DNA from: Gammaproteobacteria bacterium
Lineage (GTDB): Bacteria; Pseudomonadota; Gammaproteobacteria; Steroidobacterales; Woeseiaceae
Length of the DNA: 64,000 nt
Assembly (NCBI GenBank): GCA_013151645.1
Contig: JAADHU010000051.1
Coordinates: 124,001 to 188,000, forward strand
Direction of reading: 5' to 3'
A model generated the notes under the pieces. It saw only the letters and a program-made list of their open reading frames with translations, was not told the origin of the DNA and did not search any database. Shown piece by piece: positions 41,981-63,020 of this stretch (the first letter of the stretch is position 1; each line of letters starts with the position of its first letter). The position numbers and the translations under genes are program-made.

Positions 41981-41984
41981 TACA

Positions 41985-42672: not shown

Positions 42673-43101
42673 TTACTCGTCGCTCTCTCCGTACAGGTCT
42701 TCGTAGTAATCGACCTGACGAACAAATTCTGTTCGATCCAGCGGCGCCAGAATTTCATCCAGCAATGTATTGGCCGGTCTTCCCATCAAATCGCCCGGAT
42801 CCGATTTTTTCCATGGCACGATGTACAACACTGTTGGCAATTCCTGGTTGCCCGTGATTTCCGTTCGACCCAGGTCGAGTTCGTCCATCACCTCACTTCC
42901 AACCGTACGTCGCCTGATATCGGCGCTCAGCACCGCCGACGACACGCCCGGCTCGATCTCGTCCCGTTCCTGCGCTTGTTGCTCCGCCGTCGCTACTGCC
43001 TGACTCTCGTCGGCCGCTTCGCTTGTATCAGCCTCCTGGGCCAGCGCCGCAAAACCTGTCAATGTCAGGAAAAGCAATAATCCACTGAAAACCGATCTCA
43101 T
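42673..43101 (-). CDS. Exported protein of the envelope operon, unknown
   Basis: A 142-residue protein with a signal peptide (MRSVFSGLLLFLTLTGFAALAQEAD) and an acidic, low-complexity start of the mature region. The conserved-looking end contains ELPTVLYIVPWKKSDPGDLMGRP... in the last 60 residues, with LDEILAPLDRTEFVRQVDYYE. I do not recognise a named family. It lies between the TPR lipoprotein gene (five-base gap) and the TolQ-like gene, so it is probably a structural part of the same machine. Confidence 0.78.
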   Translation of the reverse strand: MRSVFSGLLLFLTLTGFAALAQEADTSEAADESQAVATAEQQAQERDEIEPGVSSAVLSADIRRRTVGSEVMDELDLGRTEITGNQELPTVLYIVPWKKSDPGDLMGRPANTLLDEILAPLDRTEFVRQVDYYEDLYGESDE

Positions 43102-43106
43102 ACTCG

Positions 43107-43775
43107 TTACTCCGTCACATTTGCGGTGCGTTGATTCGCCTGAACACGCCTTTTGAGATCTGTGATCCACTTCTCAACCTGCTTATCTTCATCAATAAGC
43201 GTTTGATAATATTCAAAATGTAATAGCGCCGCGTCGAATCGCTGCAAGTACAACTCGTTCAACACACCCAGGTTGTAGTGCGCCAACGCGTAGTCCGGAT
43301 CGGCCGCTACCGCTCTCATGTAAGCGGACTCGGCTTCTACGAACTTTCCCTGGCGTCGCAAAAGCATGCCAAGCTGGTTGAGCGCCGCCGGGTGCTCGGG
43401 ATCGATGATCAGCGCGTCGGTAATACTGCCCTCTGCGGCCTGATCGTCACCGTTTTGTGCGTAGATAATGGCAAGATTGACATGCGCTCCTGGAAAATCC
43501 GGGTACTGCAGGAGGAATTCCTGAAAGCGAAACTGGGCCTCCACGATATCCCCCGTCGACATGACAGCGACAGCCTGTTCAAACAAGGTCATGGCACGCG
43601 GCGGAATATCCCGAACCGCGCCCTGCTCTGAGTCGGAAAGCGGCGTAGTTTGGCTGGCTTTTTGGCCTGGACCGGATGCACAACCGCCGATCAGCAAGAG
43701 ACACAAACATGCCTGCGCGATCCGACCGCGAGCTATCCGGCTGTCTTCAATCTCAATAAATCGCTGTAACAACAT
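43107..43775 (-). CDS. TPR-repeat lipoprotein
   Basis: A 222-residue protein with a lipobox (LLLIGGC, cysteine at about residue 32) and at least three tetratricopeptide repeats, for example VNLAIIYAQNGDDQAAEG, NQLGMLLRRQGKFVEAESAYMRA and AHYNLGVLNELYLQRFDAAL. It is probably anchored to the outer membrane and serves as an adaptor, as TPR proteins (AglT/GltE class) do in Myxococcus gliding machinery. Its start lies 23 bases inside the end of the preceding TPR gene. Confidence 0.85.
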   Translation of the reverse strand: MLLQRFIEIEDSRIARGRIAQACLCLLLIGGCASGPGQKASQTTPLSDSEQGAVRDIPPRAMTLFEQAVAVMSTGDIVEAQFRFQEFLLQYPDFPGAHVNLAIIYAQNGDDQAAEGSITDALIIDPEHPAALNQLGMLLRRQGKFVEAESAYMRAVAADPDYALAHYNLGVLNELYLQRFDAALLHFEYYQTLIDEDKQVEKWITDLKRRVQANQRTANVTE

Positions 43776-46569
43776 CTTCGCTGCGCTCCAGTTTCGCGTA
43801 TCGAGCCGGCATTAGTATCGCCATTTCATCAAAACTATATTTGACCCACTTGTCGTACACGCCCTCAGCCGCACGATCGGTGTTCACCTTGAACAGGTCG
43901 ATGGCTTTCTCTTCGAACGGATACACCTGCTCTTCGAGCAGCAGGTCGTATTGCTCGAGCGTTTCTGCATCCAGGTCCGCTGGTCGTTCCGAGTCCATCA
44001 AATCGGCTGCCATCTGTTTGTAAGCTTCCGCCAGCCGGAACGTGGCGGCTGTCGTCACCTCTGCGACCCCGTACTCGGCAGCGGTCCCATACGCGGCAAG
44101 AACGTCCTCCATAAGCCGCTTCTTGAGCTTCATGCTGTCGGCAAGTGGCTGGGAAATCTTCATCGCCATAAAACTGCGACGTGCAGGTTCTGCGAGTTCC
44201 AGCGACGCTTTTGCAGCGAGATAGCGGGTCCGATCGGAGCGCTGCGCACCGGCAGTCGCGTCAACCTGTACCATATCTTTCAGCCGTGCTGTTCTCGCAA
44301 CGTTGTCACCGCTGGCTTCAGCGATTTGAAGAAGGCGATATCGAGCTTCGATGGACTCGGCAATCGGCTTGGGATAACGCGTAATAATGTTGTCGAGTAC
44401 GCGCTTTTCATTCGCAACCTGGTTGCCATCTTTGTATAGCCCGGCCGCTTTCCACAGCGCCTCGCGTCGAATTTCTTCACTGTCGCTGTCGACTGCGATG
44501 CGCTCAAATTCAGCAGCCGCTTCCGTGCCGCGCCCCGATTCCAGGTACGACACCGCGAGTTTGGCGGTAATGTCGTCAGCGAACTCACTGTCCGGATAGT
44601 CGCGACGAAAATCTTCCAGAACGGATGTCGCACGTCCCCAGGAAGCCATCGATATCAACGCCGCGGCCGCGTCATATTCGGCGGTTGCCCGAATATCCGC
44701 ATCGGGTACTACCTTGCCAAGGCGTGTGAAATGCGTGACCGCCGATTCAAGATCGCCGAGATCTCGAGCCTGTTCGCCTTGCTTGTAGATCGACGATGCA
44801 ATGCGATCCTTGATCTCTTGCTGGGCAACAGTATCGTCCGCGGGCGTGTATGAGCGAAGCTGGTAATAGGCCGCTTCGCCTTCTGCAAAATTCTGCAACT
44901 CAAATTGCGAATGAGCGATAACCGTCCAGGCGGTGCGTGCCAGCGGGTCTGCGACAGCCGGTTGCTTGGCAACCACTGTCTGCCCGACGGCAATCGCCAG
45001 GTCGTAGTGCGCCTGGGCAAACAAGTCTTCGGCGATTGTTGTAAGTACCGCCCCGGATTCCGGATGCTGCGGATACGTATCCGCAAATCTCAAGCCGCTG
45101 TCAAGATACTGCTGATGCCAGGCCGTCCTGGCCGTGCCCTGCAAAGTCTTCTCGTACTCACGGTAGGAAAGAATAGCGGCGTAGGCTGCTTCGCTGGACT
45201 GTTCGTGCAACGGATATTCGTACGCCGTGCGTTCATACTCGAGTGTCGCCTGGTAGAAATCGTCGCTTTCAAACAGTATCTCGCCAAGCAGGAAGTTGGT
45301 CTTCGCACTGTCCGGATCGCCCGGGAAATAGTCGAGGTATTTTCGATACCAGAGGGCCGCCTCCTGGTAGTCGCTACGACTGTCCTTGCTCTGCGCCTCC
45401 GCATGATAGTACTGCGCCAGATCATTGAGATTGGCTTTCAGGTATGCAGCAACGGCGGTATTTTTCTCAGCTGAATTCTTCAGCCAGAACGGCCTGTCCA
45501 TTCCGTATCGCTCAACGAAGCCTTTCTTGGCCTCAAGCACCAGCGTTGGGAAACCGCCGAGTTTGTAGGCTTCGATAACCTCTACCTGTAACAGTGGCGA
45601 CTTCGGATGATCCGGGTCGAGCCTCGAGAACGCTTCATAGGACTCGGCCGCATCGACAAAGCGCTCTTTCTCCAGATATAAATCGCCGAGATTCTGGAAA
45701 ATAAGGTAGCCGTATTCGGGAAAACCGCGGTGATCGAAGTAACTGATGATACTGTCGGCACCGTCCATGTAGGAAAAGCTGATGCTCAACACCCGGAATG
45801 TGTCCTCAACCAGCTCACGGTTCGCCCGACTCAGTTCGGCTAGTCGTTCGTCACCATCACGAAGTTCGATCGACGCAAGTTTTCGGTCCAACAGACTGAA
45901 AAATGGATCCAGACTATCCTCGTGCGAAGCAAGCTTGAATCGTGACCAGCCCAGTTTGTAAAGAGACTGTTCATAGAATCGTGAGATTTCACCAACACCA
46001 ACCACGTCGCTATAGGCCAGTTCCGACTCATCGTATCGTTTGCGCAGGAACAGCATCTCACCACGTCGAAACTGAACCTCGTCAAGCAATTCCGTGGCCG
46101 GGTAGCGATCAATCAGTTCATTCAGCACGCGCAGTGCATCATCGGTTTCACCCGCAATTTCGTACGCACGAGCGAGTTGGTACAAGACGGTGTCGTTGCG
46201 ACGGTAGTCCGGGTAGGTTTCCAGCAATTGATGAAACAGCGACACCGCGCTTTCGTAGGCGGCAGAACCCATCGCTTCGATATTCTGCGAGAGTTGCTCC
46301 GCCTCGGACGCATCCAGCTCCAGGTCGCCAAGACGGCGCATCGCTTCTGCCCTGAGCTCCGGGTCGTCCGAAACGAGATCCAGAAACGCGCGGTAATTGT
46401 CGCGTGCTTTATCCGTACTGTTCACGATCAACCGGCCGGGACGAACCTCGAAGGTCTTTCGTTCCAGACTTTTTATGGTGTCTTTCTTGTCTACTGCCGC
46501 CATCGCCTGCGGAATACAGGCGATCGACAGAACGGCCGCAAGCAGCAGATTTCGGCATCCGGACGTCAT
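43753..46569 (-). CDS. Large periplasmic TPR protein of the envelope operon
   Basis: A 938-residue protein with a signal peptide (MTSGCRNLLLAAVLSIACIPQAMA) and many TPR-like helical pairs along its length, such as YQLARAYEIAGETDDALRVLNEL, FLLGEILFESDDFYQATLEYE and KLAVSYLESGRGTEAAAEFE. It likely forms an extended periplasmic scaffold. The start overlaps the stop of the upstream TPR gene by four bases (ATGA). The general type matches the large TPR subunits of Glt-like systems (GltD/AgnA-like), though I cannot assign orthology. Confidence 0.85.
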   Translation of the reverse strand: MTSGCRNLLLAAVLSIACIPQAMAAVDKKDTIKSLERKTFEVRPGRLIVNSTDKARDNYRAFLDLVSDDPELRAEAMRRLGDLELDASEAEQLSQNIEAMGSAAYESAVSLFHQLLETYPDYRRNDTVLYQLARAYEIAGETDDALRVLNELIDRYPATELLDEVQFRRGEMLFLRKRYDESELAYSDVVGVGEISRFYEQSLYKLGWSRFKLASHEDSLDPFFSLLDRKLASIELRDGDERLAELSRANRELVEDTFRVLSISFSYMDGADSIISYFDHRGFPEYGYLIFQNLGDLYLEKERFVDAAESYEAFSRLDPDHPKSPLLQVEVIEAYKLGGFPTLVLEAKKGFVERYGMDRPFWLKNSAEKNTAVAAYLKANLNDLAQYYHAEAQSKDSRSDYQEAALWYRKYLDYFPGDPDSAKTNFLLGEILFESDDFYQATLEYERTAYEYPLHEQSSEAAYAAILSYREYEKTLQGTARTAWHQQYLDSGLRFADTYPQHPESGAVLTTIAEDLFAQAHYDLAIAVGQTVVAKQPAVADPLARTAWTVIAHSQFELQNFAEGEAAYYQLRSYTPADDTVAQQEIKDRIASSIYKQGEQARDLGDLESAVTHFTRLGKVVPDADIRATAEYDAAAALISMASWGRATSVLEDFRRDYPDSEFADDITAKLAVSYLESGRGTEAAAEFERIAVDSDSEEIRREALWKAAGLYKDGNQVANEKRVLDNIITRYPKPIAESIEARYRLLQIAEASGDNVARTARLKDMVQVDATAGAQRSDRTRYLAAKASLELAEPARRSFMAMKISQPLADSMKLKKRLMEDVLAAYGTAAEYGVAEVTTAATFRLAEAYKQMAADLMDSERPADLDAETLEQYDLLLEEQVYPFEEKAIDLFKVNTDRAAEGVYDKWVKYSFDEMAILMPARYAKLERSEDVVTAIY

Positions 46570-48440
46570 TGCGTTGCATCTCCGACAGTCGCCGATAAAT
46601 CATAAATCGCCGCAAGCGCAAATCGTGCCTGAACCGTATAGGCATCGAGACGCTGCTTTTGCGCCCGCAGTTCCCGCACTGCAATTGACTGCAGGAATCC
46701 AAGTTGTTTACCCAGTGAGTGATCGACGCGCGCCTTGATTGAATCGATTTTCGGACTAAGACCACTGACCCGCTGATTGAAGGCTTCGAACAAAAGTGGC
46801 TCATCACGCATTGATTCATCGACCTGACGCCGCGACCGCTGGGTTTCGACCAGTGCCTCACCCGTCTGCCTCAAGTTGCGCCGAATTTTCCACAGGCGTG
46901 ACCTGAATTCCTTCTCCAGATTCCACTGCAAGACGCCCTTCAAGAGGCGGACTTTGTCGCGAACCTCATCGGCCTCCGGAATATTGGCTTGCATCGCCGG
47001 TTTTTGTTCCAGCGACACAATTTCACCCCACAATTCGAACTCCTGTCGGCTGGCCAGCGCCAGGGCATCACCACTTTGTTCAACGCTGTTCAAGTGGGCA
47101 TCGAATTCAAGCTTGCGTTGTACCATCGCATCGATATCTGCCGCGCCAAGGCTCTCATTGATTCTTGGCAACCTAACCTCATACGCCAGTTCCCGAGTAT
47201 CGAGCATATTTCGGTAGACGCCGATCTTGCCCTGCCACTCGTCCAGGTTTTCAGACAGATAGCGAAGATCGCGATAATTTTTCAGTCCTTCCTGAAACTC
47301 GTGCGTTGCCAACAGGTGATACAGATATCGCGACTCTGGCCGCTCCGGCAGATTCTCGAGACGCCAATACCAACCGGTCGAGCCACGCTCGCCATCGGCC
47401 AGAAACTCGTCGAACAAAACGCCCGATTCGATCAGGCCAATGGTCTTGTCAAGACGACCGGTTTCCTCGTAGAAAGCTTCGATTGCGTTCAGATAATAGT
47501 CAGCAGCCTGGCTGATCGAATCCAGCTTCGCCATCGCGTAGGGAATAGCAAGCATCGATTCCTGTACCGCGGAGTCAAGCAGGTTTCGATCACGAAGCTC
47601 CATCCACGGAACCAGCGCACGGTTGTAATCGTCAACTTCAGCGTCTGCCCAGCCAACACCAAGAAGCGCCTTGTTGGAAAACGGACCATCGAGGCGTACG
47701 CGTTGCAGCGGCGGCTTGGCAGCGAGCGGTTGCCCTTCCTGCAAATACGCATAACCCAGCGCAAGATTCGCTTTGTCACGCAGAGCGCTCAGCTCTTCAT
47801 TAAAAGGGTCGAGCCGGCCCAGATCGTCCAGAATCTGTGCGGCTGCGTTTACCTGTCCGTCGCGCACCATCGCAACACCAAGATTGAATCGTGCGTAACT
47901 CGACCACTCCGTTTTGCCCTTCCAGGCGCTGAGCAACGCGATCGCAGCATCAAGTTCACCGTTCTCGATATACAGCTGTGCTTTGAGCATTTGCCGCTCC
48001 GCCTGCATGGAAGACGGTAGCTCGCCCTTGATGTTCGCCAGCGCTTTTTCAGATTTATCAAGATAGCCGCGCTGCTGCCAGATTTTCGCAAGAAAAAACC
48101 ACGTCCTGTCCCGAACCTCAGGATTGACGTTGTCCGCCAGCAACGCTTCAAAAATTTCAGCGGCTCGCAGATGGTGTCCGTAAGACAAATAGAGGCCGCC
48201 CAGCAATAGTTCCGCTTCGGCACTGTGATTAACAAACTGTTGCTGTTTCTTAGCCGCAAGTAGTCGCACGATGGCGGGAAAATAATCTTCCTGGTAGAAA
48301 TAAAACAGGACCTCACCAAACTGAGGGTCCTCGACAACTATCTTCTGCTGACTATCATCATCAGCAAAGGAATTTTCAGGCCATGCTGTAAACAGCAGGA
48401 CCAGCCAGAGAGAACATGTAATGATCGGGCGAGTGATCAA
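46566..48440 (-). CDS. Periplasmic TPR/helical protein of the envelope operon
   Basis: A 624-residue exported protein (signal peptide ending NSFADDDSQ). The first 350 residues hold TPR-like repeats (AELLLGGLYLSYGHHLRAAEIFEAL, ARFNLGVAMVRDGQVNAAAQIL, NLALGYAYLQEGQPLAA). The rest, including KEFRSRLWKIRRNLRQTGEALVETQ, is long helix/coiled coil. It is a likely structural partner of the 938-residue protein, with which it is translationally coupled. Function inferred from the operon only. Confidence 0.83.
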   Translation of the reverse strand: MITRPIITCSLWLVLLFTAWPENSFADDDSQQKIVVEDPQFGEVLFYFYQEDYFPAIVRLLAAKKQQQFVNHSAEAELLLGGLYLSYGHHLRAAEIFEALLADNVNPEVRDRTWFFLAKIWQQRGYLDKSEKALANIKGELPSSMQAERQMLKAQLYIENGELDAAIALLSAWKGKTEWSSYARFNLGVAMVRDGQVNAAAQILDDLGRLDPFNEELSALRDKANLALGYAYLQEGQPLAAKPPLQRVRLDGPFSNKALLGVGWADAEVDDYNRALVPWMELRDRNLLDSAVQESMLAIPYAMAKLDSISQAADYYLNAIEAFYEETGRLDKTIGLIESGVLFDEFLADGERGSTGWYWRLENLPERPESRYLYHLLATHEFQEGLKNYRDLRYLSENLDEWQGKIGVYRNMLDTRELAYEVRLPRINESLGAADIDAMVQRKLEFDAHLNSVEQSGDALALASRQEFELWGEIVSLEQKPAMQANIPEADEVRDKVRLLKGVLQWNLEKEFRSRLWKIRRNLRQTGEALVETQRSRRQVDESMRDEPLLFEAFNQRVSGLSPKIDSIKARVDHSLGKQLGFLQSIAVRELRAQKQRLDAYTVQARFALAAIYDLSATVGDATQ

Positions 48441-49990: not shown

Positions 49991-51043
49991 CTATTCAGCG
50001 GCAGGCGACCCATCACCCGGCGGCCGCAAGCCGTCAGAATAGTAAAGGCCACCTTCGTCATCAATGACAATTCCCTCGTAATCCGGCAATGTCGCGATAA
50101 GGCGCAATCCCCGGTCCACACCCATAACAAAGACCGACGTTGACAACGCATCCGTGATGACCGCATCGGGCCCGACAACCGTCGCGCTGCGAATACCGCT
50201 CGCAGGCTCGCCTGTCGATGGCTGTAGAATATGGTGATAGCGCTTGCCATTTTCGAGAAAAAATCGCTCGTAATCGCCCGACGTAGAGATGGCTTCATCC
50301 TGCAACGGGATCGTCACTGTGACCTGGCCTTCCTCACGGGGATCTCGTACACCGACCATCCACGACTGGCCGCGACGATCTCCCAACAGCCGTGTGTCCC
50401 CGCCGGCGGTAACACGGCCATGGTGAACGCCAAACTTCTTCAATATTTCAACGCCTCGCTCAACCGCATACCCTTTGGCGATACCGCCAAGGTTAATGCG
50501 CACGCCCGCTCGCGCGAACGAAATCGTATTGTCCGCCCGGTTCATTTCCACCAGCCGATAGTTAATGCTCTCGAGCTCTTTTTGTACCGTCACGCTGTCC
50601 GGGCGCTCTCCGGCACGAAAGTCATAGTGCTGACCGACGCTGTCGTAGGTCACATCGAAAGCACCCCGAGTCAAAATGGAGATGTCGAGTGAACGTAATA
50701 TTAACTGGAACAATTCCTCTCCGGCGTCGACCGGCTCGACCGCCGCATCGCGATTGATGGCCGATATACGACTGCCTTCAAGGTAGGTGCTCATCAATAA
50801 ATTGATGCGCTCGATTTCGACGAATACGGCCTCCAGCGCCGCGTCACCCTGCGCCGCATCGTCGTGCCACAGGTAGACGCTGACTTCCGTCCCCATCAGC
50901 GGCCTCGCCGCGCCGATCCACGCGGCGACCGCAGAGCTTGAAAAAGCAGAAAACGTAACCATAACAACGGCTAGCGTTACACGGAGGCAAGGTTTATCCT
51001 TGTCTGGTCGAAATTTTCTCAAGGAAGCGAACAGTGACCTCAT
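49991..51043 (-). CDS. apbE: FAD:protein FMN transferase
   Basis: A 350-residue ApbE protein with a signal-peptide-like region (about 21-41). It keeps RPLMGTEVSVYL, RISAINR and the flavin-binding VRINLGGIAKGYAVERG (181-197), with AGGD (213-216) and the magnesium-binding DALSTSVFVMG. It transfers FMN from FAD to a Thr of periplasmic domains of electron-transport proteins such as NqrC or RnfG. I start at ATG 51043 (AGGA upstream), which makes its 5' end overlap the divergent lemA gene by ten bases; a TTG at 51061 is possible. Confidence 0.9.
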   Translation of the reverse strand: MRSLFASLRKFRPDKDKPCLRVTLAVVMVTFSAFSSSAVAAWIGAARPLMGTEVSVYLWHDDAAQGDAALEAVFVEIERINLLMSTYLEGSRISAINRDAAVEPVDAGEELFQLILRSLDISILTRGAFDVTYDSVGQHYDFRAGERPDSVTVQKELESINYRLVEMNRADNTISFARAGVRINLGGIAKGYAVERGVEILKKFGVHHGRVTAGGDTRLLGDRRGQSWMVGVRDPREEGQVTVTIPLQDEAISTSGDYERFFLENGKRYHHILQPSTGEPASGIRSATVVGPDAVITDALSTSVFVMGVDRGLRLIATLPDYEGIVIDDEGGLYYSDGLRPPGDGSPAAE

Positions 51044-51624
51044 TTCTGATATTCCTCGCAATCGTGGCCGCGTTTTTGATGTACGCGGTGGGCATTTACA
51101 ACAGTCTGATCAATCTTCGCAATCGCGTCAAAAATGCGTTTGCACAAATCGATGTTCAGCTGACACGGCGGCACGATCTGATCCCCAATCTTATTGAAGC
51201 CGTCAAAGGATATATGAAACACGAGCGAGAAACGCTGGAAGCCGTCATTAAAGCCCGCAATTCCGCCGTCTCCAATCTCGACGCGGCCAAACAGGATCCG
51301 TCGAACGCCGCCGCAATCCAGAAACTCGGCGCCTCCGAGGGAGCACTCGGCAGCGCCCTCGGTCGCTTGTTCGCCTTGTCGGAATCCTACCCCGATCTGA
51401 AAGCCAATCAAAACATGATGCAGTTTCAGGAAGAGCTCTCGAGCACCGAAAACAAGATTGCGTTTTCCCGCCAGGCCTTCAACGACAGCGTATTAACCTA
51501 TAACAACAAGGCGGAAAACTTTCCGAACAGTATTATTGCCGGCATGTTCCGCTTCGAACTGGCCAGTTTCCTTGAGATTGAGTCCGAAGAAGTACGAGAG
51601 GTGCCGAAAGTATCTTTCACCTGA
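51034..51624 (+). CDS. LemA-family protein
   Basis: A 196-residue LemA protein: an N-terminal membrane helix (about 3-20) then NLRNRVKNAFAQIDVQLTRRHDLIPNLIEAVKGYMKHE and a four-helix bundle ending GMFRFELASFLEIE. The GTG start at 51034 has AAGGA eight bases upstream. It is followed after 58 bases by an M48 protease gene, a pairing widely seen in bacteria. The function is uncertain; links to membrane proteolysis are suggested by that context. Confidence 0.9.
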   Translation: MTSFLIFLAIVAAFLMYAVGIYNSLINLRNRVKNAFAQIDVQLTRRHDLIPNLIEAVKGYMKHERETLEAVIKARNSAVSNLDAAKQDPSNAAAIQKLGASEGALGSALGRLFALSESYPDLKANQNMMQFQEELSSTENKIAFSRQAFNDSVLTYNNKAENFPNSIIAGMFRFELASFLEIESEEVREVPKVSFT

Positions 51625-51682
51625 GAATCATCCGACCAGCCATCGCTGATCGTATTGATGCAGTCGTCCGGGAACACGCAAC

Positions 51683-53593
51683 GTGAATTTTTTTGAAGCA
51701 CAAGACAGTGCCCGGCGCGCGACCCGCTGGCTCGTGATTGTCTACGTCATCGCAACGACACTCATCGTCGCCGGAGTGACCGTGCTCGTCGCCGGCGCAT
51801 TCGCCCAGCAAGGCCGCTCCCCGGATCCTGCGGTCCTGCTCATCGTCGCATTTGCGGCAACGGCATTGATCGTTGGAGCCACACTTTTTAAGACGGCACG
51901 ATTGTCGTCGGGTGGTGGTCGCGTGGCGACCGATATGGGCGGCACCCTCGTTTCCGAGAACGAGCAAGACCCGCTCCGTCGCCGGCTCCGCAACGTTGTC
52001 GAGGAAATGGCTATTGCATCCGGCGTACCGGTGCCGGAGATTTATGTAATGGAGCACGAAGAAGGGATCAACGCGTTTGCCGCGGGGTTTACACCCGGGG
52101 ACGCCGCCATCGCGGTGACCCGAGGCACATTGGAGCTGCTGAACAGAGACGAATTACAAGGCGTTATCGCGCATGAATTCAGTCATATTCTGAACGGCGA
52201 TATGCGTCTCAATATTCGTATGATGGGCGTTCTGTACGGCATTATGGTGATCGGCCTGATCGGCCGGTTCATCTTGCGCGGCAGCTATCACGGCAGCCTG
52301 ATTTCCAGGGGTCGTAACAAAAACTCCGGTGGTGCTTTGGCCATAGGGCTTGGCCTGACAGTACTCGGCTGGATCGGTGTCTTCTTCGCCCGGATCGTCA
52401 AGGCTGCTGTATCGAGGCAGCGGGAGTTTCTCGCGGACGCATCCGCTGTACAATTCACGCGCCAGTCGGACGGCATCGCAAATGCGCTGAAAAAGATAGG
52501 TGGTTTCGAGGCACGATCGTTTATCAAGGCGGCGGATCCGGAAGAAGTCAGCCACATGCTGTTTGCCGTCGGCGCGAATTTTTCTTCGCTGTTCGCCACC
52601 CCCCCGCCGTTGACCGAGCGCATTCGGGCGATCGACCCCCAGTTCGACGAGTCCCAGTATCAGACCGTGCGCTCCGCTGGCCGCCAAACGAACGTCGACG
52701 ATAGCGTCGCTGGCCCGGTAGCTGGATTCGCGAGGATGCAAGGCGGAGAGGTCAATCTTCCACAATCGCTGGCTGCATCGATCGGCCGACCCGGCATCGA
52801 GCATATCGAGTTCGCGCAAAAGTTACACCGCTCTATTCCCGCCGACATAGCAACCGCCGCACATGAACCTGCGCGGGCATACCTGATGACGCTTGCATTG
52901 ATCATCGACGTTTCGCGGAACGCCGCCGATCGCCAGATTGACCTGCTGAAACTCAAACTCGGGGACGAACGAGCACAACTCATACGCGCTTATCACCAGG
53001 AAATTCTGCAGATGGGCGAAGAGTTTCGCTTGCCCCTGCTCGAAATTTCGTTCCCCGCATTAAAACGAATGCCGCCTAAGAAACTCGAATTTCTTCTGGA
53101 CCTTGCCCGAGAATTGATTGAGCTGGACGGGAAAATCGATTTCTATGAATTCTGTATTTATCGAATCCTCACTCGCAATCTGGCGCAAGCGTTGGCACCG
53201 TCGGCGCGCCGCCAGAAACGGCGACCAGCATCGCGCTCCGCCGTTCGAACTGCCGCCATTGAGGTCATCGGCCTGCTGGCCGACCGCGGGCATGAGTCTC
53301 CCGATGAGAAAAGACAGGCGTTCAAAGCCGGTCTGTCCGTGTTTGGCGATTGGTCGGAAAGCACACAACTCGCAAGCCCGTCCGCAGACGCCGTTGCAAA
53401 GTTCGATCAAAGCCTCGACGTTCTGCAACGAATGAACAGTGCGGCAACCCAAAGCTTTCTCGAGGCAGTCAATATCACGGCCAGTCACGATGGCAAGGTC
53501 TCCGTGCAGGAAGCTGAAATGATCCGTGCGATCTGCGCATCGCTCGACTACCCGTTGCCGCCCATGCTATCCGGCCCGCCTGCCACGAAATGA
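51683..53593 (+). CDS. M48-family membrane metalloprotease with long C-terminal extension
   Basis: A 636-residue protein. Two membrane helices (about 15-38 and 50-70) precede the M48 zinc site HEFSH (164-168) with GVIA before it, and the third-ligand region EFLADASAV (Glu plus Asp). HtpX-like proteases are about 290 residues; here more than 300 extra residues follow, including two helical segments with acidic turns (ELDGKIDFYEF and ASHDGKVSVQEAEMIRAIC) resembling TerB-like or EF-type repeats. It is the partner gene of lemA. The GTG start has GGGAA upstream. Substrates unknown; the extension may sense metal or stress. Confidence 0.87.
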   Translation: MNFFEAQDSARRATRWLVIVYVIATTLIVAGVTVLVAGAFAQQGRSPDPAVLLIVAFAATALIVGATLFKTARLSSGGGRVATDMGGTLVSENEQDPLRRRLRNVVEEMAIASGVPVPEIYVMEHEEGINAFAAGFTPGDAAIAVTRGTLELLNRDELQGVIAHEFSHILNGDMRLNIRMMGVLYGIMVIGLIGRFILRGSYHGSLISRGRNKNSGGALAIGLGLTVLGWIGVFFARIVKAAVSRQREFLADASAVQFTRQSDGIANALKKIGGFEARSFIKAADPEEVSHMLFAVGANFSSLFATPPPLTERIRAIDPQFDESQYQTVRSAGRQTNVDDSVAGPVAGFARMQGGEVNLPQSLAASIGRPGIEHIEFAQKLHRSIPADIATAAHEPARAYLMTLALIIDVSRNAADRQIDLLKLKLGDERAQLIRAYHQEILQMGEEFRLPLLEISFPALKRMPPKKLEFLLDLARELIELDGKIDFYEFCIYRILTRNLAQALAPSARRQKRRPASRSAVRTAAIEVIGLLADRGHESPDEKRQAFKAGLSVFGDWSESTQLASPSADAVAKFDQSLDVLQRMNSAATQSFLEAVNITASHDGKVSVQEAEMIRAICASLDYPLPPMLSGPPATK

Positions 53594-54587: not shown

Positions 54588-55661
54588 TTGCAGGACTTTT
54601 TGATTCAGATCGAACGTTGGGCTGCGCTGCTTGGCCCGAATAAATTTATCCAGGCGACCGCCATTGCCGTCGCCTTTATTGTTGCCGGCAAAATCGCCGA
54701 TTTCTTACTCAGCAACACGCTGGCAAAGATTGCCAACCGATCGAGCAATCGACTGGACGATCAATTGATCGGGATGTTGCACCGACCAATTTTTCTGTCT
54801 TTTGTACTGATCGGGCTCGGTCTGGCGACACAACGCATCGACATGGCGGAGTCCGCCGAATATCTAACGCTGGGACTCCTCAAAACGATCGCAATTATTG
54901 TTTGGTACAGCCTGTTTCGCCGGCTGGCCTCGATCATACTCAGCGTACTTTCCCGCGGCAGCGGGCATAAGATTTTGCAGGCCAATATGCTGCCATTGAT
55001 GGACAACACCGTTAAAGTTGTCCTTGCCGCATTGACGGCCTACTTCATTTTTCTGGCCTGGAATATCGATGTCACCGCCTGGCTCGCGTCAGCCGGAATT
55101 GTCGGTCTCGCATTAAGCTTTGCGGCCAAAGATACTTTATCGAATTTGTTTGCAGGCGTGTCAATTGTCGCCGACGCACCGTACAAATCCGGTGACTACA
55201 TCACTCTTGAGTCCGGTGAACGCGGCCAGGTCACCCACATAGGTCTTCGCAGCACTCGAATCCTCACCCGCGATGACGTAGAAATTACCGTGCCCAACGG
55301 ACTCATCGGCAACAGTAAGATCGTGAACGAAACTGGCGGTATTTCCCCGCGACACCGCATTCGAGTTGCCGTCGGCGTCGCGTATGGAAGTGACGTCGAC
55401 CATGTCATTGCAACGTTAGCCCGGGTTGCTGACGACCACAGTGAAGTTTGTCAGTCCCCGCAACCCAGGGTTCGATTTCGTAAGTTCGGTGATTCCAGCC
55501 TGGATTTCGAACTGCTTTGCTGGATCAATCAACCCGTTGATCGCGGCCGAATTTTGCACGAGCTCAATTGTTCTGTGTATAAGGCGTTTGTTAACGAAGC
55601 AATTGTCATTCCGTATCCGCAACGGGATTTGCACGTACGAACGATGCCCAATCCTGACTAG
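54588..55661 (+). CDS. Mechanosensitive ion channel (MscS family)
   Basis: A 357-residue MscS-type channel. Four membrane helices lie in the first 150 residues; the pore-lining helix contains GIVGLALSFAAKDTLSNLFAG, and the cytosolic beta domain has DYITLESGERGQVTHIGLRSTRI and TVPNGLIGNSKIVN. It opens under membrane tension to release solutes on osmotic downshock. It starts with TTG 54588, preceded by an AGGACG site; a second in-frame TTG at 54600 is possible. The stop overlaps the convergent lipoprotein stop by four bases (CTAG). Confidence 0.88.
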   Translation: MQDFLIQIERWAALLGPNKFIQATAIAVAFIVAGKIADFLLSNTLAKIANRSSNRLDDQLIGMLHRPIFLSFVLIGLGLATQRIDMAESAEYLTLGLLKTIAIIVWYSLFRRLASIILSVLSRGSGHKILQANMLPLMDNTVKVVLAALTAYFIFLAWNIDVTAWLASAGIVGLALSFAAKDTLSNLFAGVSIVADAPYKSGDYITLESGERGQVTHIGLRSTRILTRDDVEITVPNGLIGNSKIVNETGGISPRHRIRVAVGVAYGSDVDHVIATLARVADDHSEVCQSPQPRVRFRKFGDSSLDFELLCWINQPVDRGRILHELNCSVYKAFVNEAIVIPYPQRDLHVRTMPNPD

Positions 55662-56236
55662 TTGTTGCGGCGTTCCAGTTCCCGTCGAATATCATCGAGG
55701 TCGGTGCCGCTGGCGGGGACGGTCTCGTCGACTGTCGGTTGACGCTCCGCTTCGAGCACCGCTGTAGGCGGCTCATCGGCTGGCATTACTGCACGCACTT
55801 CCTCGCCAGATTCTATCGGAGACAACGCGACTTGCCCCGGGAATTCTGCCTCCGACTCAATCGGCGACGATGCGAATTGCCCCAGGTATTCCGCTTCAAG
55901 ACGCAGTCGTTCCGCCTCGGTCGCCCGACGACGCGATTCGGCCGCCGCTTCCTGGGCTCGCCGCAGTGCCCGACGCTTGCGTTCGGACTGGGCCTCAAGC
56001 GCCTCGCGGTTCGCCTCCTCTTCAGCCCTTGCCATGAGATTGATTGCTTCGCGGGCGTTAACGCATTCCGCCTCGTATTTCATCGTTGAACGATTTTCGG
56101 CACAACGCACCATGGCAGCCTCGAGCAGGTTTGAGTTTCCCCTGAACTCATTTACGGTGTGTGGCGGCGCTTCTTCCGAACACCCTGCGAGGAGTGCGAA
56201 AATACTCAGCATGATTGTCAAATTGTTGTTTTTCAT
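55658..56236 (-). CDS. Lipoprotein with charged coiled coil
   Basis: A 192-residue lipoprotein. The lipobox LLAGC (cysteine at about residue 19) follows MKNNNLTIMLSIFAL. The mature part has REAINLMARAEEEANREALEAQSERKRRAL, a strongly charged helix likely to be coiled coil (75-115), then a proline/glutamate-rich tail ending in DDIRRELERRN. A periplasmic or outer-membrane stalk role is plausible. I do not recognise a family. It ends in a four-base convergent overlap with the channel gene. Confidence 0.65.
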   Translation of the reverse strand: MKNNNLTIMLSIFALLAGCSEEAPPHTVNEFRGNSNLLEAAMVRCAENRSTMKYEAECVNAREAINLMARAEEEANREALEAQSERKRRALRRAQEAAAESRRRATEAERLRLEAEYLGQFASSPIESEAEFPGQVALSPIESGEEVRAVMPADEPPTAVLEAERQPTVDETVPASGTDLDDIRRELERRNN

Positions 56237-56408
56237 CAAAAATTAACGACTCAACGGGTGCCCATGGGTCTCGCTACCGACGGCGAACTCCTTCTGGCGA
56301 TAATACCAGCGGCAGGGGAAACCGATATGCGCCAGTTCGCAGTTCGGAGCAAGCTGATTGGCGCTGTTTTGTTATAGTGGGGCAGCCAGATTGCAGGATA
56401 TCGCCTAC

Positions 56409-58309: not shown

Positions 58310-61300
58310 TTATTCCAGCTCATCGCCTCGTCCAAGTTTCTCACGCCATTGCTCGAGAAGTTCGTCACGACTGCCAAACAAAATCGGCCCCTCGGAATAG
58401 GAAAAATACAGATTCACGAGCTCGATGAAACCGGCATCGCGTGCAAGCGACAACACGTGATCGCCCGGACCGACGGCAGACCGGCCGTCGACCGCGCCGT
58501 GCGATTCCTGCGGTTCAACACGATCATCGAAAGCCATTCGGGACCCCCGCAATGCCTGCGGGGCACGTAACGCGCTTTCCCAGGTGATACCTGCACGGGA
58601 GACGTCCGCACGGTGAATCCAGCGAGACGTGCGCAGAAGTACCCGGGAATCGCCAGGGCTGAACAAGACGTCGTTGATCGGGCCCGGTAACTGCAGCGAT
58701 TGTTGTCCTATCCGGCCGCTCTTGATATCGAAGACCAGAGCGGTACTTTCTGCATCGACAAGCACCAGCAGCTGTCTGGCGACGGACAGTTCGATACGCT
58801 GCAACGGCACTCGCCCCTGCCAGACATTGCCCAGACTCCAGTTGCCAAGCTGATCCGAGAATACGCGCCGTAACATGCCGCTTGTCCCAGCCAGGTACAG
58901 TTGTTCTTCGTCGACGTACACCATGTCGGCGTGCATTTCGCCAAGCTCGATATGCGCCAGTACCGCACCTGTCTCGACATCCATGATCGAGACGGATTGA
59001 CCGCTGAGAATCGCCAGTCGACGACCGGAGCGTGAAAAGCGCAATAAATCGATGGCGTTCGTTGATGCGCTGGCATGGTACGGTCGCGGCAATCCACTAA
59101 CGGCATCCCAGATTCGCACCGTCCCGCGCTCGCCGGCACTGGCGATGAGCGATCCGTCGTGGCTGAACGCCAGACTGACCACGGCACTGCGGTGGCCGAG
59201 AAAGTTTAGTTCATCGCTGTTGTCGGCGAGACGTTTTTCCCGGCTACCAACGCTCACGATATGCACGTGACCGTCGTCGTCGCCGATCGCCAGACGTTGC
59301 CCGCCCGGTGAAATGACGGCCACAGTATCCTCCGACTCACGCCACGGTTGGTGCGTCGACCCTTTGCCCATCGAGCCGTTCACCTCATGCAGGGCAGACA
59401 TCGTCGGTACACGCCAAAATCGGGCCAGCCCGGTCACGTCCGCTGTCACTATCGCTCGCTCGTTGCTGCTAAAAGACAAGAGCGTGCCGGGATCCGATGA
59501 CAAACCGGAGCCGAGAAGCGGCCCTGTTGCTACGCTGTCAGCGGTGCGGTACAACTGAAATCCCTTTTGACTGTCACCCGCGATGAATAGCCTGCCCGAC
59601 GGCGAAAAGGCGAATTGCCATTCGGCTATGGATTTTTTCGTGAATAAGGGGCGGTCGAACTGACTGACTTTCCACAGGGAGACGCCGTGCTCGCCATGAA
59701 CGACCCCCAGGGCGTCTCCGCCTGGCGAGAGTTCGATCGAACTGGCTTGCTCATGCAAATCCAGCTGGCTGAGCAATTCGCCACTGCGAAAATCCCAGAT
59801 GCGTACAGCACGATCATAGTCCGCAACGGCCAGTCGTATACCGGCGCGATCCAGAGAAACCAGCGCAGGTATCCCGGCGATCGACAGACTCGCGACGCGT
59901 GTTGCGGATTCCAGACTCCATAAATCGAAAATCGTTTCGCCTTCGTTGCTGCGCGAAACCAGCAAACTCCGACCGTCAGCGGTCAATTGCGAGTAAGTGC
60001 TCAACCCGGTCTTCAATTCGACCGCGCGAAGTCCACTCATCGTATCCCACAAGTGAACCGTATCCTGGGCAATGGTCACCAGATACTGAGCAGTGGCACT
60101 CAATCCGAGCACGGATTCGCTGGCGGGCACAGCGATCGTTCTGGCCGGTTGCGCATGAACCAGGTCCCACAATCGGGCACCGTCGATCTGCGGTGCACGC
60201 GCAATGGCATAGCGACCGTTTCTGCTAAACCAGATATTGTCTGACGCCCGTTCGACCGGCTCCGGAATATCGAGGCCACGCTCAAAGTCCTCCACAATCG
60301 CCTGCCCGTTTAGCCGCAGGTTCCAGGCCATCAAATGACCGCTCGTGCCAGGTGTTTCATCTCGCACGCTCAATGTCCACGTCCCGGCCAGAGGTTCCCC
60401 GATCAGCGCATCAAGAACCCCTTCGGCGAAACGAATTTCATCGTTTTCCGACGATGCGGATTGCTCGAAATCGATCGCCACAGCCCGGCCCGACGGGGCA
60501 ATCAGCCGAATACGCAGATCATCCAGACGCGCATGTTCAACGTTGACAGACAGTGAGATACGGGACACCAACGCCCGGCGATCAACGACGACACGTCTGA
60601 CCAAGGGGGCAATTTCCAATGCGGAAATAGTCCACGAGTCACGACGTTCCAGCCGATCGTTAATCATGGCCCATTGGGACAGACGTGCGCCATCGACCAT
60701 GGTCAGCAATTCATTTTCCGGATCAAACAAGCGACGTTCAACACCTTCGCGAGCGGCTGTTGCGATCAGGCGTGGATAGTCATCGCCGACCAGCGTTGCG
60801 GCGAGCCTGCGCCGCCGCGGCGTCGACAGGACCAGCGACTGCAGCGACGCCAGCAACGCGTCGTCGCGACGTTGCTCCCGCAACGCCCGCCTCACCTGGC
60901 GGTCCCAAAAGTCGGCCGTCACGGCATCCGCAAATCGAGCCCGCATCGGAACGCCGCGCGACGATTCGATAATTTCACCCAGGGCAATGATATCGGTTAC
61001 CTCTCGTGACCTCGTCTCCAGTACGTTGGCATACAGCCGGTTTGCAGACTGCACATGGCCAGGAAACGATCGATAATTGACATACGCATCCTCAATCACG
61101 GTCAGCGGCAACGTCGGCGACGTTAGAACGCGCACATAGGGCCTGGGCAAGAGCTGCGTATACCAAAACGGTATGGCGATCAGCGTGATAAGCAAGGCGG
61201 CCGCTCTGACGGGTCCTTGCCAGCGAATGGGCAGGTTTTCGTTTGCCCAGCGGGCCGTAAATACAGATGCATACAGCCTGTTTCGGACTCGCAGATTCCC

Positions 61301-62356
61301 TTCCGTATCGCTGACAACAAGGCCGACGGCAATCAGCTTGCGGTGCTGGCGCGATTCCGGATCGAACGGCACCTGGATACCTTTTCGCATGCTGCCATAT
61401 GTGGTGAGCAATGCTTCAAAATCGTTTTTGTCCTCGACGATGCGGCGATGAATATGCCCCATATGCGGTTCGTTGTGCAGCGCACTTCGACCGCCTAGCT
61501 GGTGTTCGGCAATACGATCGACATGCCCGCCGATATCACCCGAGATTCGCTCCCGAGCGACCGCTCTGGCAAGTTTCTGGCTAAGGTAGGGTTGTCCGCC
61601 GGTCCAAAAGAAGATGCGATCGAGTGCGCTGCAGACATCTTGCGGAGGCAGGTGGAGCTCGGTCGAAAACACCTCCAGGTCGCTGCGACTAAAGTCGTCC
61701 AAACGCACGGCGTGCATCCGGTCAAACGGTGAAAAAACCTCGTTCGTTACCAGGATTTGCGGATCGCACTCACCGCACAACACGAATATGAGACGAGAAA
61801 ATTCTGGCTCCGTCACCAGTGAATTGTGCGCTGCACGTATACTCGCCAGTAACTCCTGTGCGAAGGGTAGTTCCTCGACGCACTCAAGCTCATCGACGAA
61901 AACGACCACCGAATGCTTCGTATTCGAAAGAATGGCCTCGTTGTAAAATTCGACCAGGCGCTGCCGATTGCTCAGGATTGACTTGTCCTGCCACCAGGTT
62001 TGCAAATCGAATTTGATGCGCAACTGCCGTAGCAAGCGATATGCAATGCTGTAGTACCAGCGCCCCGAGTCGGCGCCGGCATCGCGCTCTCCGATTTGCG
62101 CCAGATCAAGCGTGGCGACGTGATAGTGGTTATTCTGCAATCGCGCCGATGTCGCCGCGATCAGGCTGGTTTTGCCCGATCGTGCCGGCGCCAGTACATG
62201 AGCATCATGTCCGGCAGTGATGGCATTGTAGAGCACCTCATCCGCCTTTCGGTGGATGTAACCGGCACGCACGGCATGCAACGGTGGGCCAACGGTGAAG
62301 AATTCGGCCTCCGCTTTGGCCGACTCCTTGCTGATTCGATCCTGGTTGTCTGCCAT
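58310..62356 (-). CDS. Multidomain membrane ATPase with P-domain and WD40 repeats
   Basis: A 1348-residue protein with four regions. Residues 20-370 form an AAA ATPase of the AAA_35/STAND-like kind with Walker A around RSGKTS (59-64) and Walker B VVFVDELE (151-158). A single membrane helix (about 384-400) follows. Residues 560-690 contain a P-domain of proprotein-convertase type (RISLSVNVEHARLDDLRIRLIAPSG, GTWTLSVRDETPGTSGHLMAWNLRLNG). Residues 700-1250 carry WD40-type repeats with several DLWDxxSG or VRIWDA endings. The ATPase would be cytosolic and the rest outside the membrane. ATG 62356 has AGGTGA upstream. The combination suggests a sensor or switch, such as in defence or signalling; function is unknown. 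Confidence 0.82.
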   Translation of the reverse strand: MADNQDRISKESAKAEAEFFTVGPPLHAVRAGYIHRKADEVLYNAITAGHDAHVLAPARSGKTSLIAATSARLQNNHYHVATLDLAQIGERDAGADSGRWYYSIAYRLLRQLRIKFDLQTWWQDKSILSNRQRLVEFYNEAILSNTKHSVVVFVDELECVEELPFAQELLASIRAAHNSLVTEPEFSRLIFVLCGECDPQILVTNEVFSPFDRMHAVRLDDFSRSDLEVFSTELHLPPQDVCSALDRIFFWTGGQPYLSQKLARAVARERISGDIGGHVDRIAEHQLGGRSALHNEPHMGHIHRRIVEDKNDFEALLTTYGSMRKGIQVPFDPESRQHRKLIAVGLVVSDTEGNLRVRNRLYASVFTARWANENLPIRWQGPVRAAALLITLIAIPFWYTQLLPRPYVRVLTSPTLPLTVIEDAYVNYRSFPGHVQSANRLYANVLETRSREVTDIIALGEIIESSRGVPMRARFADAVTADFWDRQVRRALREQRRDDALLASLQSLVLSTPRRRRLAATLVGDDYPRLIATAAREGVERRLFDPENELLTMVDGARLSQWAMINDRLERRDSWTISALEIAPLVRRVVVDRRALVSRISLSVNVEHARLDDLRIRLIAPSGRAVAIDFEQSASSENDEIRFAEGVLDALIGEPLAGTWTLSVRDETPGTSGHLMAWNLRLNGQAIVEDFERGLDIPEPVERASDNIWFSRNGRYAIARAPQIDGARLWDLVHAQPARTIAVPASESVLGLSATAQYLVTIAQDTVHLWDTMSGLRAVELKTGLSTYSQLTADGRSLLVSRSNEGETIFDLWSLESATRVASLSIAGIPALVSLDRAGIRLAVADYDRAVRIWDFRSGELLSQLDLHEQASSIELSPGGDALGVVHGEHGVSLWKVSQFDRPLFTKKSIAEWQFAFSPSGRLFIAGDSQKGFQLYRTADSVATGPLLGSGLSSDPGTLLSFSSNERAIVTADVTGLARFWRVPTMSALHEVNGSMGKGSTHQPWRESEDTVAVISPGGQRLAIGDDDGHVHIVSVGSREKRLADNSDELNFLGHRSAVVSLAFSHDGSLIASAGERGTVRIWDAVSGLPRPYHASASTNAIDLLRFSRSGRRLAILSGQSVSIMDVETGAVLAHIELGEMHADMVYVDEEQLYLAGTSGMLRRVFSDQLGNWSLGNVWQGRVPLQRIELSVARQLLVLVDAESTALVFDIKSGRIGQQSLQLPGPINDVLFSPGDSRVLLRTSRWIHRADVSRAGITWESALRAPQALRGSRMAFDDRVEPQESHGAVDGRSAVGPGDHVLSLARDAGFIELVNLYFSYSEGPILFGSRDELLEQWREKLGRGDELE

Positions 62357-62528
62357 TCGACTCACCTGCCGGCGTTTGCCCTGCATCCGGTAATATCGTA
62401 GCAGAAATAGATACCCGGCTTGCCCCGAAACTTTTGACTCATAGCTGAAGTCGGTATGCCAAGTAACTCGAAGACAGCGTAGTTGACGTGCGATATACTC
62501 CTCGCCCGATATTGAGGAGGTCTGCGCA

Positions 62529-62777
62529 GTGGAGTTTTGTCATCAACATAATCTGGTCAGACCGGATACTGCCGGCGCCGAACGACCGTTTGGTATTAAA
62601 GTCTCACTACCGCCCGGAGACACGTTTGAACGTCTTTTGGGCCGTGATTGGGAACGGCTCCATTGGTACGCCACTGAAGCACAGCGCGATCTTGCGTTCC
62701 AGCAAATGGCCAGTCGGCACGGCTACTACCGCAGCACCGATACAGCCACCCAGGTTCTCGAAAAGTTATGCCGTTGA
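62529..62777 (+). CDS. Small conserved-looking hypothetical protein
   Basis: An 82-residue protein from GTG 62529, preceded by GAGGAGG, an unusually strong ribosome site about 9 bases upstream, which supports real translation. The sequence has a conserved-looking helix EAQRDLAFQQMASRHGYYRSTD and an earlier segment LPPGDTFERLLGRDWERLHWY. No signal peptide or membrane helix; likely a soluble cytoplasmic protein. I do not recognise a family. It may share a transcript with the zinc-ribbon gene that follows 45 bases later. Confidence 0.65.
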   Translation: MEFCHQHNLVRPDTAGAERPFGIKVSLPPGDTFERLLGRDWERLHWYATEAQRDLAFQQMASRHGYYRSTDTATQVLEKLCR

Positions 62778-62822
62778 GACCGCAGCGTCGTCACTAACCA
62801 TTACCAACAGAGCGAATAACCC

Positions 62823-63020
62823 ATGGCAGACCCAAAATGTCCGGCTTGTTCTGCAAGCGGAATTGACAAAATCGTATCGACACCCAGCGTCGAAAAATCA
62901 CGTGAAAATACACCCTGGTTCTACGTTTCTCATTGCGATGAGTGCGGCCACGTGTATGGAACTTTCACCAAACATGTATTTGGCCGTAGCGGTCCGCAGC
63001 TCATCGTAGATCGCAAATAG
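62823..63020 (+). CDS. Small zinc-ribbon protein
   Basis: A 65-residue protein with two CxxC pairs, CPACSAS near the start (Cys6 and Cys9) and HCDECGHVYG (Cys38, Cys41), which likely bind one zinc ion as a zinc ribbon. The rest is short and basic. Such proteins act in RNA, protein or nucleic-acid binding, but no partner is evident. It lies 26 bases before the isocitrate dehydrogenase gene and may be co-transcribed with it. Confidence 0.7.
   Translation: MADPKCPACSASGIDKIVSTPSVEKSRENTPWFYVSHCDECGHVYGTFTKHVFGRSGPQLIVDRK

Follow-up and report, generated by a model that had tools for sequence, protein, structure and literature searches.

Comparison with the closest described systems

STAND ATPases are known mainly as cytosolic switches whose ligand-sensing repeats lie in the same compartment. 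In Apaf-1, the STAND protein of the apoptosome, the nucleotide-binding, helical and winged-helix domains (NBD-HD-WHD) are followed by two propellers. The protein considered here, which is encoded in the window (the whole stretch of 64,000 nucleotides that was analysed), has a similar layout: its ATPase aligns to the apoptosome chain 5juy_B (Z 15.8, rmsd 4.4 over 300 residues), and Apaf-1 (3sfz) is among the best fold matches of its whole C-terminal part. In contrast to Apaf-1, the window protein has no CARD, its membrane helix lies between the ATPase and the propellers, a P-domain is placed inside the first propeller, and the propellers are predicted to be outside the membrane. Of the archaeal STAND-fold ATPases, paby2304 (2qen) aligns to the ATPase over 311 residues (rmsd 4.2) and SSO1545 (2fna) over 312 (rmsd 4.3), but both are chains of about 350 residues that possess neither a membrane helix nor propellers.

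The same ATPase, with 27-33% identity (30 of 41 records listed), is present in AAA_35 proteins of a plasmid collection, mainly from cyanobacteria, through which alone the phyla other than the window's own were sampled. These matches run from query residues ~15-30 to 376-394 and thus end at the ATPase. Beyond it, other AAA_35 proteins carry C-terminal WD40, CHASE2, TPR or GAF/PAS parts; a membrane helix is followed by CHASE2 in L112 and, according to Pfam, by WD40 in L104, L105 and L106, L113 has GAF/PAS, and in L108 a membrane helix also follows AAA_35. Given such variety of C-terminal parts, the window protein represents a novel form within a family of modular switches. Its P-domain sets it apart, since the P-domain profile found none in 11 other AAA_35 proteins, while the same profile recovered the window protein and five of five protease controls.

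As for the P-domain itself, which is of the proprotein-convertase type, the closest described counterparts belong to secreted subtilases. Profile comparison matched it to the Aeromonas sobria serine protease 3hjr (E 4.5e-8) and, at E ~0.01-0.03, to furin and kexin; Kex2 and 3hjr were also among the fold matches of the window protein. Unlike in these enzymes, the P-domain of the window protein is accompanied by no protease and is nested in a WD40 propeller of an ATPase. Literature searches, in which mostly the best 20 matches were considered, brought up no paper that presents such an architecture in its title or in the opening lines of its abstract.

Gene, domain order and the cytosolic ATPase

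The gene, including its stop codon, occupies positions 58310..62386 of the minus strand, to which all coordinates within the gene refer. The first ATG (62386) opens a frame of 1358 amino acids and the second in-frame ATG (62356) one of 1348; the latter is probably the translation start, as judged by its better fit to the N-termini of homologues. Residues are numbered here in the 1358-residue frame, and 10 should be subtracted to obtain the numbering of the preliminary description, which used the shorter one. That description of a membrane protein with an AAA ATPase, a P-domain and WD40 repeats was confirmed for one reading frame by Pfam, by homologues and by AlphaFold: a single chain contains a STAND-type ATPase (AAA_35), then one membrane helix and a helical stalk, and finally WD40 propellers with the P-domain. 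The domain matches exceed chance, as in a set of 60 sequences (the window protein and 59 homologues) AAA_35 was found in all at E<=0.001 and the P-domain in 56 (Pfam, residues 30-725), and the homologues keep the same order within one gene, not in separate ones. Two AlphaFold models had mean pLDDT of 87.5 and 88.9; they leave the placement of the ATPase relative to the outer part unfixed (pTM 0.55).

The cytosolic ATPase, with its nucleotide-binding, helical and winged-helix parts, comprises residues 30-386 (61229..62299), as delimited by Pfam and by fold matches; AAA_35 (PF14516) covers residues 42-377 (E 2.3e-23, 83 bits against a cut-off of 27). The Walker A and B boxes seen earlier are indeed present. 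The Walker A-like P-loop (residues 66-73, 62168..62191) has GK[ST] in 60 of 60 sequences, with the first Gly of the canonical motif replaced by Ala in 49 and kept in 5, and Walker B (residues 160-166, 61889..61909) has its Asp in all 60 and a Glu after it in 41. The region of the GxP motif, a hallmark of STAND ATPases (residues 261-271, 61574..61606), contains G264 and P266 in every sequence. The combination of an invariant P-loop and GxP motif with a varying Walker B Glu is, in our reading, more in keeping with a switch than with a fast motor.

Residues 1-357 of the model align to NLRs, CED-4, the apoptosome, 2qen and 2fna, with the three parts in the STAND order, so that the likeness to bacterial NTPase switches, noticed previously in the WD40 part, extends to the ATPase, which has the whole STAND fold that such switches use. 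Thus the predicted fold is kin to animal and plant cell-death switches. The top fold matches were 2qen (Z 20.8) and 2fna (Z 20.5), along with plant NLRs, CED-4 and the apoptosome. SSO1545 belongs, together with Npun2340/2341, to the MNS clade of STAND proteins. This clade is named in PMC8195603, and the window protein may resemble it in fold. No effector domain was found among the 25 Pfam families listed, of 34, for the window protein, nor is there a CARD or another death adaptor, only ~30 poorly conserved residues being located N-terminal to the ATPase.

P-domain and WD40 propellers

The first WD40 blade (residues 540-575, 60662..60769), recognised by four strands in the model and by profile matches to PDB WD40 blades, precedes the P-domain, which is therefore an insertion within the first propeller (residues 588-694, 60305..60625; Pfam, homologues and PDB profile matches). 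Hence, both parts named in the preliminary description are present, but not in the order given there, with the P-domain ahead of all WD40 repeats. P_proprotein (PF01483) matches residues 608-692 over positions 2-86 of its 86 (E 5.6e-16, 58.9 bits against a cut-off of 21). The remainder of propeller 1 extends over residues 711-992 (59411..60256; Pfam and AlphaFold) and propeller 2 over residues 1013-1332 (58391..59350), the latter aligning to single WD40 propellers with Z ~25 over ~274 residues. In Pfam, WD40 is above the cut-off at residues 1062-1094 (E 2.2e-15), and WD40-propeller models cover ~716-1168; the model contains about 15 blades, as estimated by counting strands.

The statement that no protease is linked holds for the protein: peptidases are absent from the 25 listed of its 34 Pfam families and, for the 60 sequences, from the 13 families that matched residues 30-725. 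In the window's genome this P-domain was the only one at E 0.001. Five of five P-domain frames scanned from other genomes carry a peptidase. The P-domain was not recognised in family f2 (none of five genomes, G092 among them) or in G803, where the match ends at model position 561 within a frame of 1228 residues; it is therefore usual, not universal, and cannot be needed in every member.

Membrane helix, stalk and topology

A single transmembrane helix was confirmed by hydrophobicity and AlphaFold at about residues 390-413 (61148..61219), given before as about residues 384-400 in the shorter frame; Y409 and P414, the latter just after the helix, are invariant in A1. The helix is the most hydrophobic segment of the window protein and of 58 of the 60 sequences, another segment being slightly more hydrophobic in L032 and L008. 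It is followed by a helical stalk (residues 415-533, 60788..61144; AlphaFold), presumably periplasmic. After the helix, only two Cys occur in ~56,600 residues of the 60 sequences, 58 of which have none, compared with 0.92 per 100 residues before it; in four other AAA_35 proteins of the WD40 type, Cys after the helix amounts to 0.26-0.74 per 100. Lys and Arg are more numerous in the N-flank of the helix than in the C-flank in 34 sequences, equal in 26 and fewer in none. Cys depletion and positive-inside bias together argue strongly for a periplasmic C-terminus, which very probably places the P-domain and the WD40 part beyond the membrane, with the ATPase on its cytosolic side. To this extent the earlier proposal of a part detecting a ligand outside the membrane stands, as regards location. 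The Cys depletion had been overlooked in the preliminary description.

The converse arrangement, in which the hydrophobic segment merely tethers a wholly cytosolic WD40 scaffold, agrees with the fact that most WD40 proteins are cytosolic, with a Chloroflexota protein of AAA_35-helix-WD40 layout in which Cys is only slightly asymmetric (0.54 and 0.46 per 100), and with the only mild hydrophobicity of the helix (1.2-1.4) in L050, L054 and L062. We consider it very improbable in view of the near absence of Cys after the helix, of the charge bias, and of the peptidases in all five other P-domain frames, which fit an exported domain.

Distribution and genomic context

Among the genomes sampled, 81 of 91 in the gene's own family and 26 of 58 others in its own order gave a match. 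No full-length match was found outside the order in the class (369 genomes) or phylum (299) samples, the latter overlapping the former (e.g., G420, G512); in these searches just the top candidates of a permissive initial pass are scored, so that some may be missed. Of the entries listed for the class sample, five are the window's own or come from the same family or order. Matches outside the order cover the ATPase alone or the P-domain alone. Within the order no clear ATPase-only relative was seen, just pieces and three matches below 30 bits (G020, G057, G059). An exact peptide-pattern scan of genome contigs, by the limits of that method, retrieved a single relative from the same genus. The gene is single-copy in the window's genome, its locus is stable and its tree follows the taxonomic families; judging by these comparisons, it appears to have been kept across much of the order and inherited vertically at one locus.

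These observations bear on a role in phage defence or cell death, in which the ATPase would trigger death once the exported part had recognised an attacker at the envelope. Proposed conflict systems, treated in PMC7159879 and PMC8195603, repeatedly contain STAND ATPases and propellers, and the outer part of the window protein diverges faster than its ATPase. Nevertheless, we regard this role as improbable, given the lack of an effector among the families listed, the family-wise tree and the stable locus; PADLOC yielded nothing beyond a weak match (18.6 bits) in the WD40 part, the four neighbouring frames, which include the probably spurious frame 62488-63009, had none, and 50,697 phage records contained no match. 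On the same grounds a mobile or immune gene was judged unlikely, and neither a patchy, mobile distribution nor, by PADLOC in the four neighbouring frames, effector or adaptor genes, as in STAND conflict systems, were found.

Conserved neighbours do exist, but the best conserved of them also occurs in genomes without the ATPase gene. It is a divergent gene of an 82-residue protein (62529..62777, plus strand), which adjoins the ATPase gene in 39 of 40 loci. Altogether 159 of 196 order genomes contain it, many of them from family f10, where no full-length copy of the ATPase gene was seen, as do 27 of 274 class-sample genomes, 24 of which lie outside the order. As a dedicated partner it was rejected, being a stable yet not specific neighbour, and no other dedicated partner gene was found at the locus. 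A divergent protein-kinase-like gene is located in 23 of 40 loci (NCBIfam matches below cut-off); a search run with no positive control found no match to it in the window's own genome.

Other neighbours are relevant to the main rival of a receptor function, an inside-out machine with a housekeeping and not a sensory role, in which cytosolic ATP binding or hydrolysis would rearrange the periplasmic propeller scaffold for envelope assembly, sorting or holding. The anatomy of the protein suits such a machine as well. An EexN-family lipoprotein gene (55658..56239, minus strand, in the window) lies close behind the gene in families f2, f4 and f11, and an M48 peptidase gene (51683-53593, 4.7 kb past the 3' end, with four genes between) is a frequent neighbour. 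The single copy, the stable locus, the family-wise tree, the cytosolic part as the best conserved one and the retention of the gene in G048, G056 and G064, three incomplete genomes of the family that measure just 1.4-1.5 Mb, also agree with it. Still, STAND ATPases work as switches, not as motors, the propellers diverge fast, and strong matches in just 94 of 196 order genomes, with none in genus g4 of the own family, imply that the protein is not indispensable. We find the machine rather unlikely, though less so than a defence role.

Possible function

The window protein is likely to be either a receptor or an envelope machine, and to a single-pass inner-membrane STAND receptor signalling from outside to inside we assign about an even chance. 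The cytosolic ATPase would be held off by its bound nucleotide, while the periplasmic stalk and two WD40 propellers, one of them with the P-domain, would recognise a ligand, either a protein or a cell-wall component. This event may be relayed to the winged helix by way of the stalk and of the conserved segment in and next to the membrane, which would lead to nucleotide exchange and to the assembly of ATPase clusters beneath the membrane. The cluster could recruit a separate partner, proposed here because no effector domain was recognised in the protein itself. Domain make-up, fold, membrane helix, the position of the P-domain within the propeller and family descent at one locus are results of computation, and ligand binding, switching, clustering and output are proposals. 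The receptor is supported by the complete STAND fold, by the topology evidence, by the sensor-type or repeat C-termini of other AAA_35 proteins and by the appearance of Apaf-1, a two-propeller STAND protein, among the best whole-model matches. It is weakened by the lack of an effector domain and of a dedicated partner gene, by the vertical descent of a single-copy gene, atypical for conflict-type STAND receptors, by the unfixed placement of ATPase and outer part in the models, and by the unrecognised P-domain in f2 and G803.

Tentatively, and with less assurance than for the receptor as such, one may see here an apoptosome-like layout that spans the membrane, a vertically inherited core STAND receptor of the order that senses the state of the envelope, with twin propellers outside and the P-domain as the ligand-binding part. 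If sensing propellers outside are indeed coupled to a switch inside, the STAND fold can signal across a membrane. The protein also shows a P-domain employed with no protease and nested in a propeller. The window's genome, in which AAA_35, P-domain and WD40 matches at the thresholds used are confined to this protein, provides a clean setting for a test. Between families, identity to the window protein is 43% in the membrane segment, 40% in the ATPase and 20% in the propellers; a helix as conserved as the ATPase, together with diverged propellers, would be expected of a receptor whose helix transmits the signal and whose outer part adapts to ligands.

Domain Architecture and Predicted Structure

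The gene occupies positions 58310-62386 on the minus strand as a single open reading frame. The preliminary description had placed its start at 62356, which is the second in-frame ATG and gives the better fit to the N-termini of the homologues. The ATPase, P-domain and WD40 repeats that it had assigned to the product are likewise recovered by Pfam, which places AAA_35 at residues 42-377 (numbered here from the first ATG, at 62386) and a complete P-domain at 608-692, together with WD40 repeats. The protein is a member of the AAA_35/STAND kind. Sixty sequences were aligned, i.e., the window protein and 59 relatives out of the 107 genomes with a match, the remaining relatives being left out and one aligned sequence (L056) being cut short; one alignment spans residues 30-725, the other, of the same sequences, residues 415-1358. 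Over residues 30-725 Pfam recognizes AAA_35 in 60/60 sequences and the P-domain in 56/60; the P-domain profile PF01483 matches in none of five genomes of family f2, whose sequences can still be aligned over this region.

AlphaFold models of residues 30-725 and 415-1358, built on these two alignments, reached mean pLDDT values of 88.9 and 87.5, respectively. The modeled ATPase fits the archaeal STAND-fold ATPases 2qen (Z 20.8, rmsd 4.2, 311 aligned) and 2fna (Z 20.5, rmsd 4.3, 312 aligned) over the whole STAND unit, and the fold search also returned plant NLR resistosomes and CED-4; against the apoptosome (5juy_B) the values are Z 15.8 and rmsd 4.4 over 300 residues. Seven helices (415-533) follow the membrane helix (about 390-413), and strands within 540-575 make one WD40 blade. 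We also built a profile of residues 538-705 from 37 of the 60 sequences. In PDB, its first part hits repeated WD40 blades; its second part hits the Aeromonas sobria serine protease at its P-domain (E 4.5e-8), as well as furin and kexin (E about 0.01-0.03). The P-domain thus lies between the first and second blades. Counted by hand, the strands of the model amount to about 15 blades, of which eight precede residue 1000 and seven follow it. Propeller 2 resembles single WD40 propellers (Z about 25 over about 274 residues), and Apaf-1 (3sfz) is among the best matches of the whole outer part, with a TM-score of 0.40 by query length.

The P-loop GK[ST], the Walker B Asp and the GxP motif are each present in 60/60 sequences, the Glu following the Walker B Asp is kept in 41/60, and Y409 and P414 are invariant in the alignment of residues 30-725. 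Identity to the window protein, computed for 38 other members of its family vs 21 sequences from other families, is 62 vs 40% for the ATPase, 55 vs 43% for the membrane segment, 47 vs 32% for the stalk, 51 vs 25% for the P module, 48 vs 20% for propeller 1 and 42 vs 20% for propeller 2.

Membrane Topology

Judging from sequence composition, we predict with high confidence that the N-terminus faces the cytoplasm and the C-terminus the outside, because cysteine is depleted after the helix and the charges of the helix flanks are biased. In the 60 sequences there are 0.92 Cys per 100 residues before the helix and 0.0035 after it; the latter part holds 2 Cys over about 56,600 residues, with none at all in 58 sequences. 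As a control, clusters 1-24 of neighboring proteins at these loci have 0.15-2.33 Cys per 100, the lowest being the LemA-family (0.15) and patatin-like (0.22) clusters. Among AAA_35-WD40 proteins of other phyla, L104, L105, L106 and L108 have 0.26-0.74 Cys per 100 after the helix, and L107, in which no membrane helix was seen, has 6 Cys among the 685 residues that follow residue 385. Lys and Arg are more numerous in the N-terminal than in the C-terminal flank in 34/60 sequences, equal in 26/60 and fewer in none. However, the helix is slightly exceeded in hydrophobicity by another segment in L032 and L008, and it is only mildly hydrophobic in L050, L054 and L062. No p-value is attached to this topology, as related sequences are not independent.

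Relatives of the ATPase Module and Possible Function

Outside this group the AAA_35 module occurs with interchangeable C-terminal parts, among them a membrane helix with WD40 repeats, a membrane helix with CHASE2 (L112:3977-6295, a Planktothrix plasmid) and GAF/PAS (L113, an Abditibacteriota plasmid). CHASE2 is a sensor domain usually located outside the membrane. In each of the 30 plasmid records listed, out of 41, the match stops between query residues 376 and 394. A P-domain profile found none in 11 such AAA_35 proteins, while detecting the window protein and 5/5 protease controls. On cyanobacterial plasmids (L105, L107, L108, L109) AAA-like genes stand in tandem, the first close to or overlapping the second.

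We favor, at about an even chance, the reading of the protein as an outside-in receptor. The grounds are the exchangeable C-termini of AAA_35 proteins, the STAND switch model, in which repeats sense and the ATPase assembles, as set out for Apaf-1 (PMC7159879), and an earlier suggestion of STAND-linked extracytoplasmic sensing, which follows from the periplasmic placement predicted for one NACHT target in PMC10907252. The main rival, an ATP-driven machine of the envelope, seems to us less likely, at roughly one chance in four. As to known systems, the protein was found to belong neither to the Apaf-1-like proteins nor to the immune STAND systems.

Gene Neighborhood

A gene for a conserved 82-aa protein (62529-62777) lies upstream on the opposite strand in 39/40 loci (L048 being the sole exception). 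The ORF starts used place it no more than about 1 kb away; in L051 and L060 these starts are mechanical and over-long. The protein has no NCBIfam match and its L033 relative no Pfam match. The gene is present in 159/196 genomes of the order and in 27/274 of a class sample, also in genomes without the ATPase gene, and therefore serves as a landmark of the locus, not as a partner. Downstream on the same strand, an EexN-family lipoprotein gene (55658-56239), chromosomal and of an entry-exclusion family by name, is found in 30/40 loci, close behind the gene in those of families f2, f4 and f11. A LemA and M48 peptidase pair (51034-53593) lies 4.7 kb past the 3' end, the M48 cluster being present in 25/40 loci; MFS-acyltransferase, MscS-type channel and Ysc84-type genes are also located further downstream. 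Elsewhere in the window, on the minus strand at 39944-48440, ExbB and two ExbD genes stand with genes for two TPR proteins and for one rich in proline, possibly forming a dedicated energized envelope system; the proline-rich product, TonB-like by eye, had no Pfam match. In 23/40 loci a protein-kinase-like gene (e.g., L033:12104-12766) separates the ATPase gene from the 82-aa gene; no match to it was found in the window's own genome.

Distribution and Descent

A match at 1e-10 is present in 107/149 relatives; counted by hand, these are 81/91 inside the family and 26/58 elsewhere in the order. Nine of the ten family genomes without one belong to genus g4 and measure 1.1-2.0 Mb. An order-wide sample, also counted by hand, gave strong matches (E below 1e-50) in 94/196 genomes and weak or partial ones only in 14 more, 13 of them P-domain-only. 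Beyond the order, only ATPase-only or P-domain-only matches came from a sample of the class (369 genomes) and one of the phylum (299) that overlaps with it. Ten matched frames, nine from these samples and one from a separate search, were scanned for domains, some being cut by the fetched stretch: 5/5 found through the P-domain carry a peptidase (S8 or M36), and of the five found through the ATPase, two carry TPR or ANAPC3, one an asparaginase domain and two nothing further. In L099:1468-3201 one open frame holds an AAA_35 match below the threshold and, after it, an asparaginase N-terminal domain. In the window's genome no other site for AAA_35 (E 1e-8), P-domain or WD40 (E 0.001) was found besides this gene. 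Among named records, a Proteobacteria MAG contig (JADFNG010000033.1, 77% identity) comes closest.

Forty of the 60 sequences were placed in a maximum-likelihood tree (residues 30-536), in which each of the seven families forms one group, requiring six changes, the least possible, vs a shuffled mean of 20.1 (0/200 shuffles as low). Support for the whole of family f1 is weak (67/45); without the very divergent L041 its other 18 members reach 95/89. This copy (L041:7749-11705) has 26-28% identity and a long branch, although its genome (G007) belongs to the same family and the locus is the same; its juxtamembrane motif is mostly altered, with the invariant Tyr and Pro still present.
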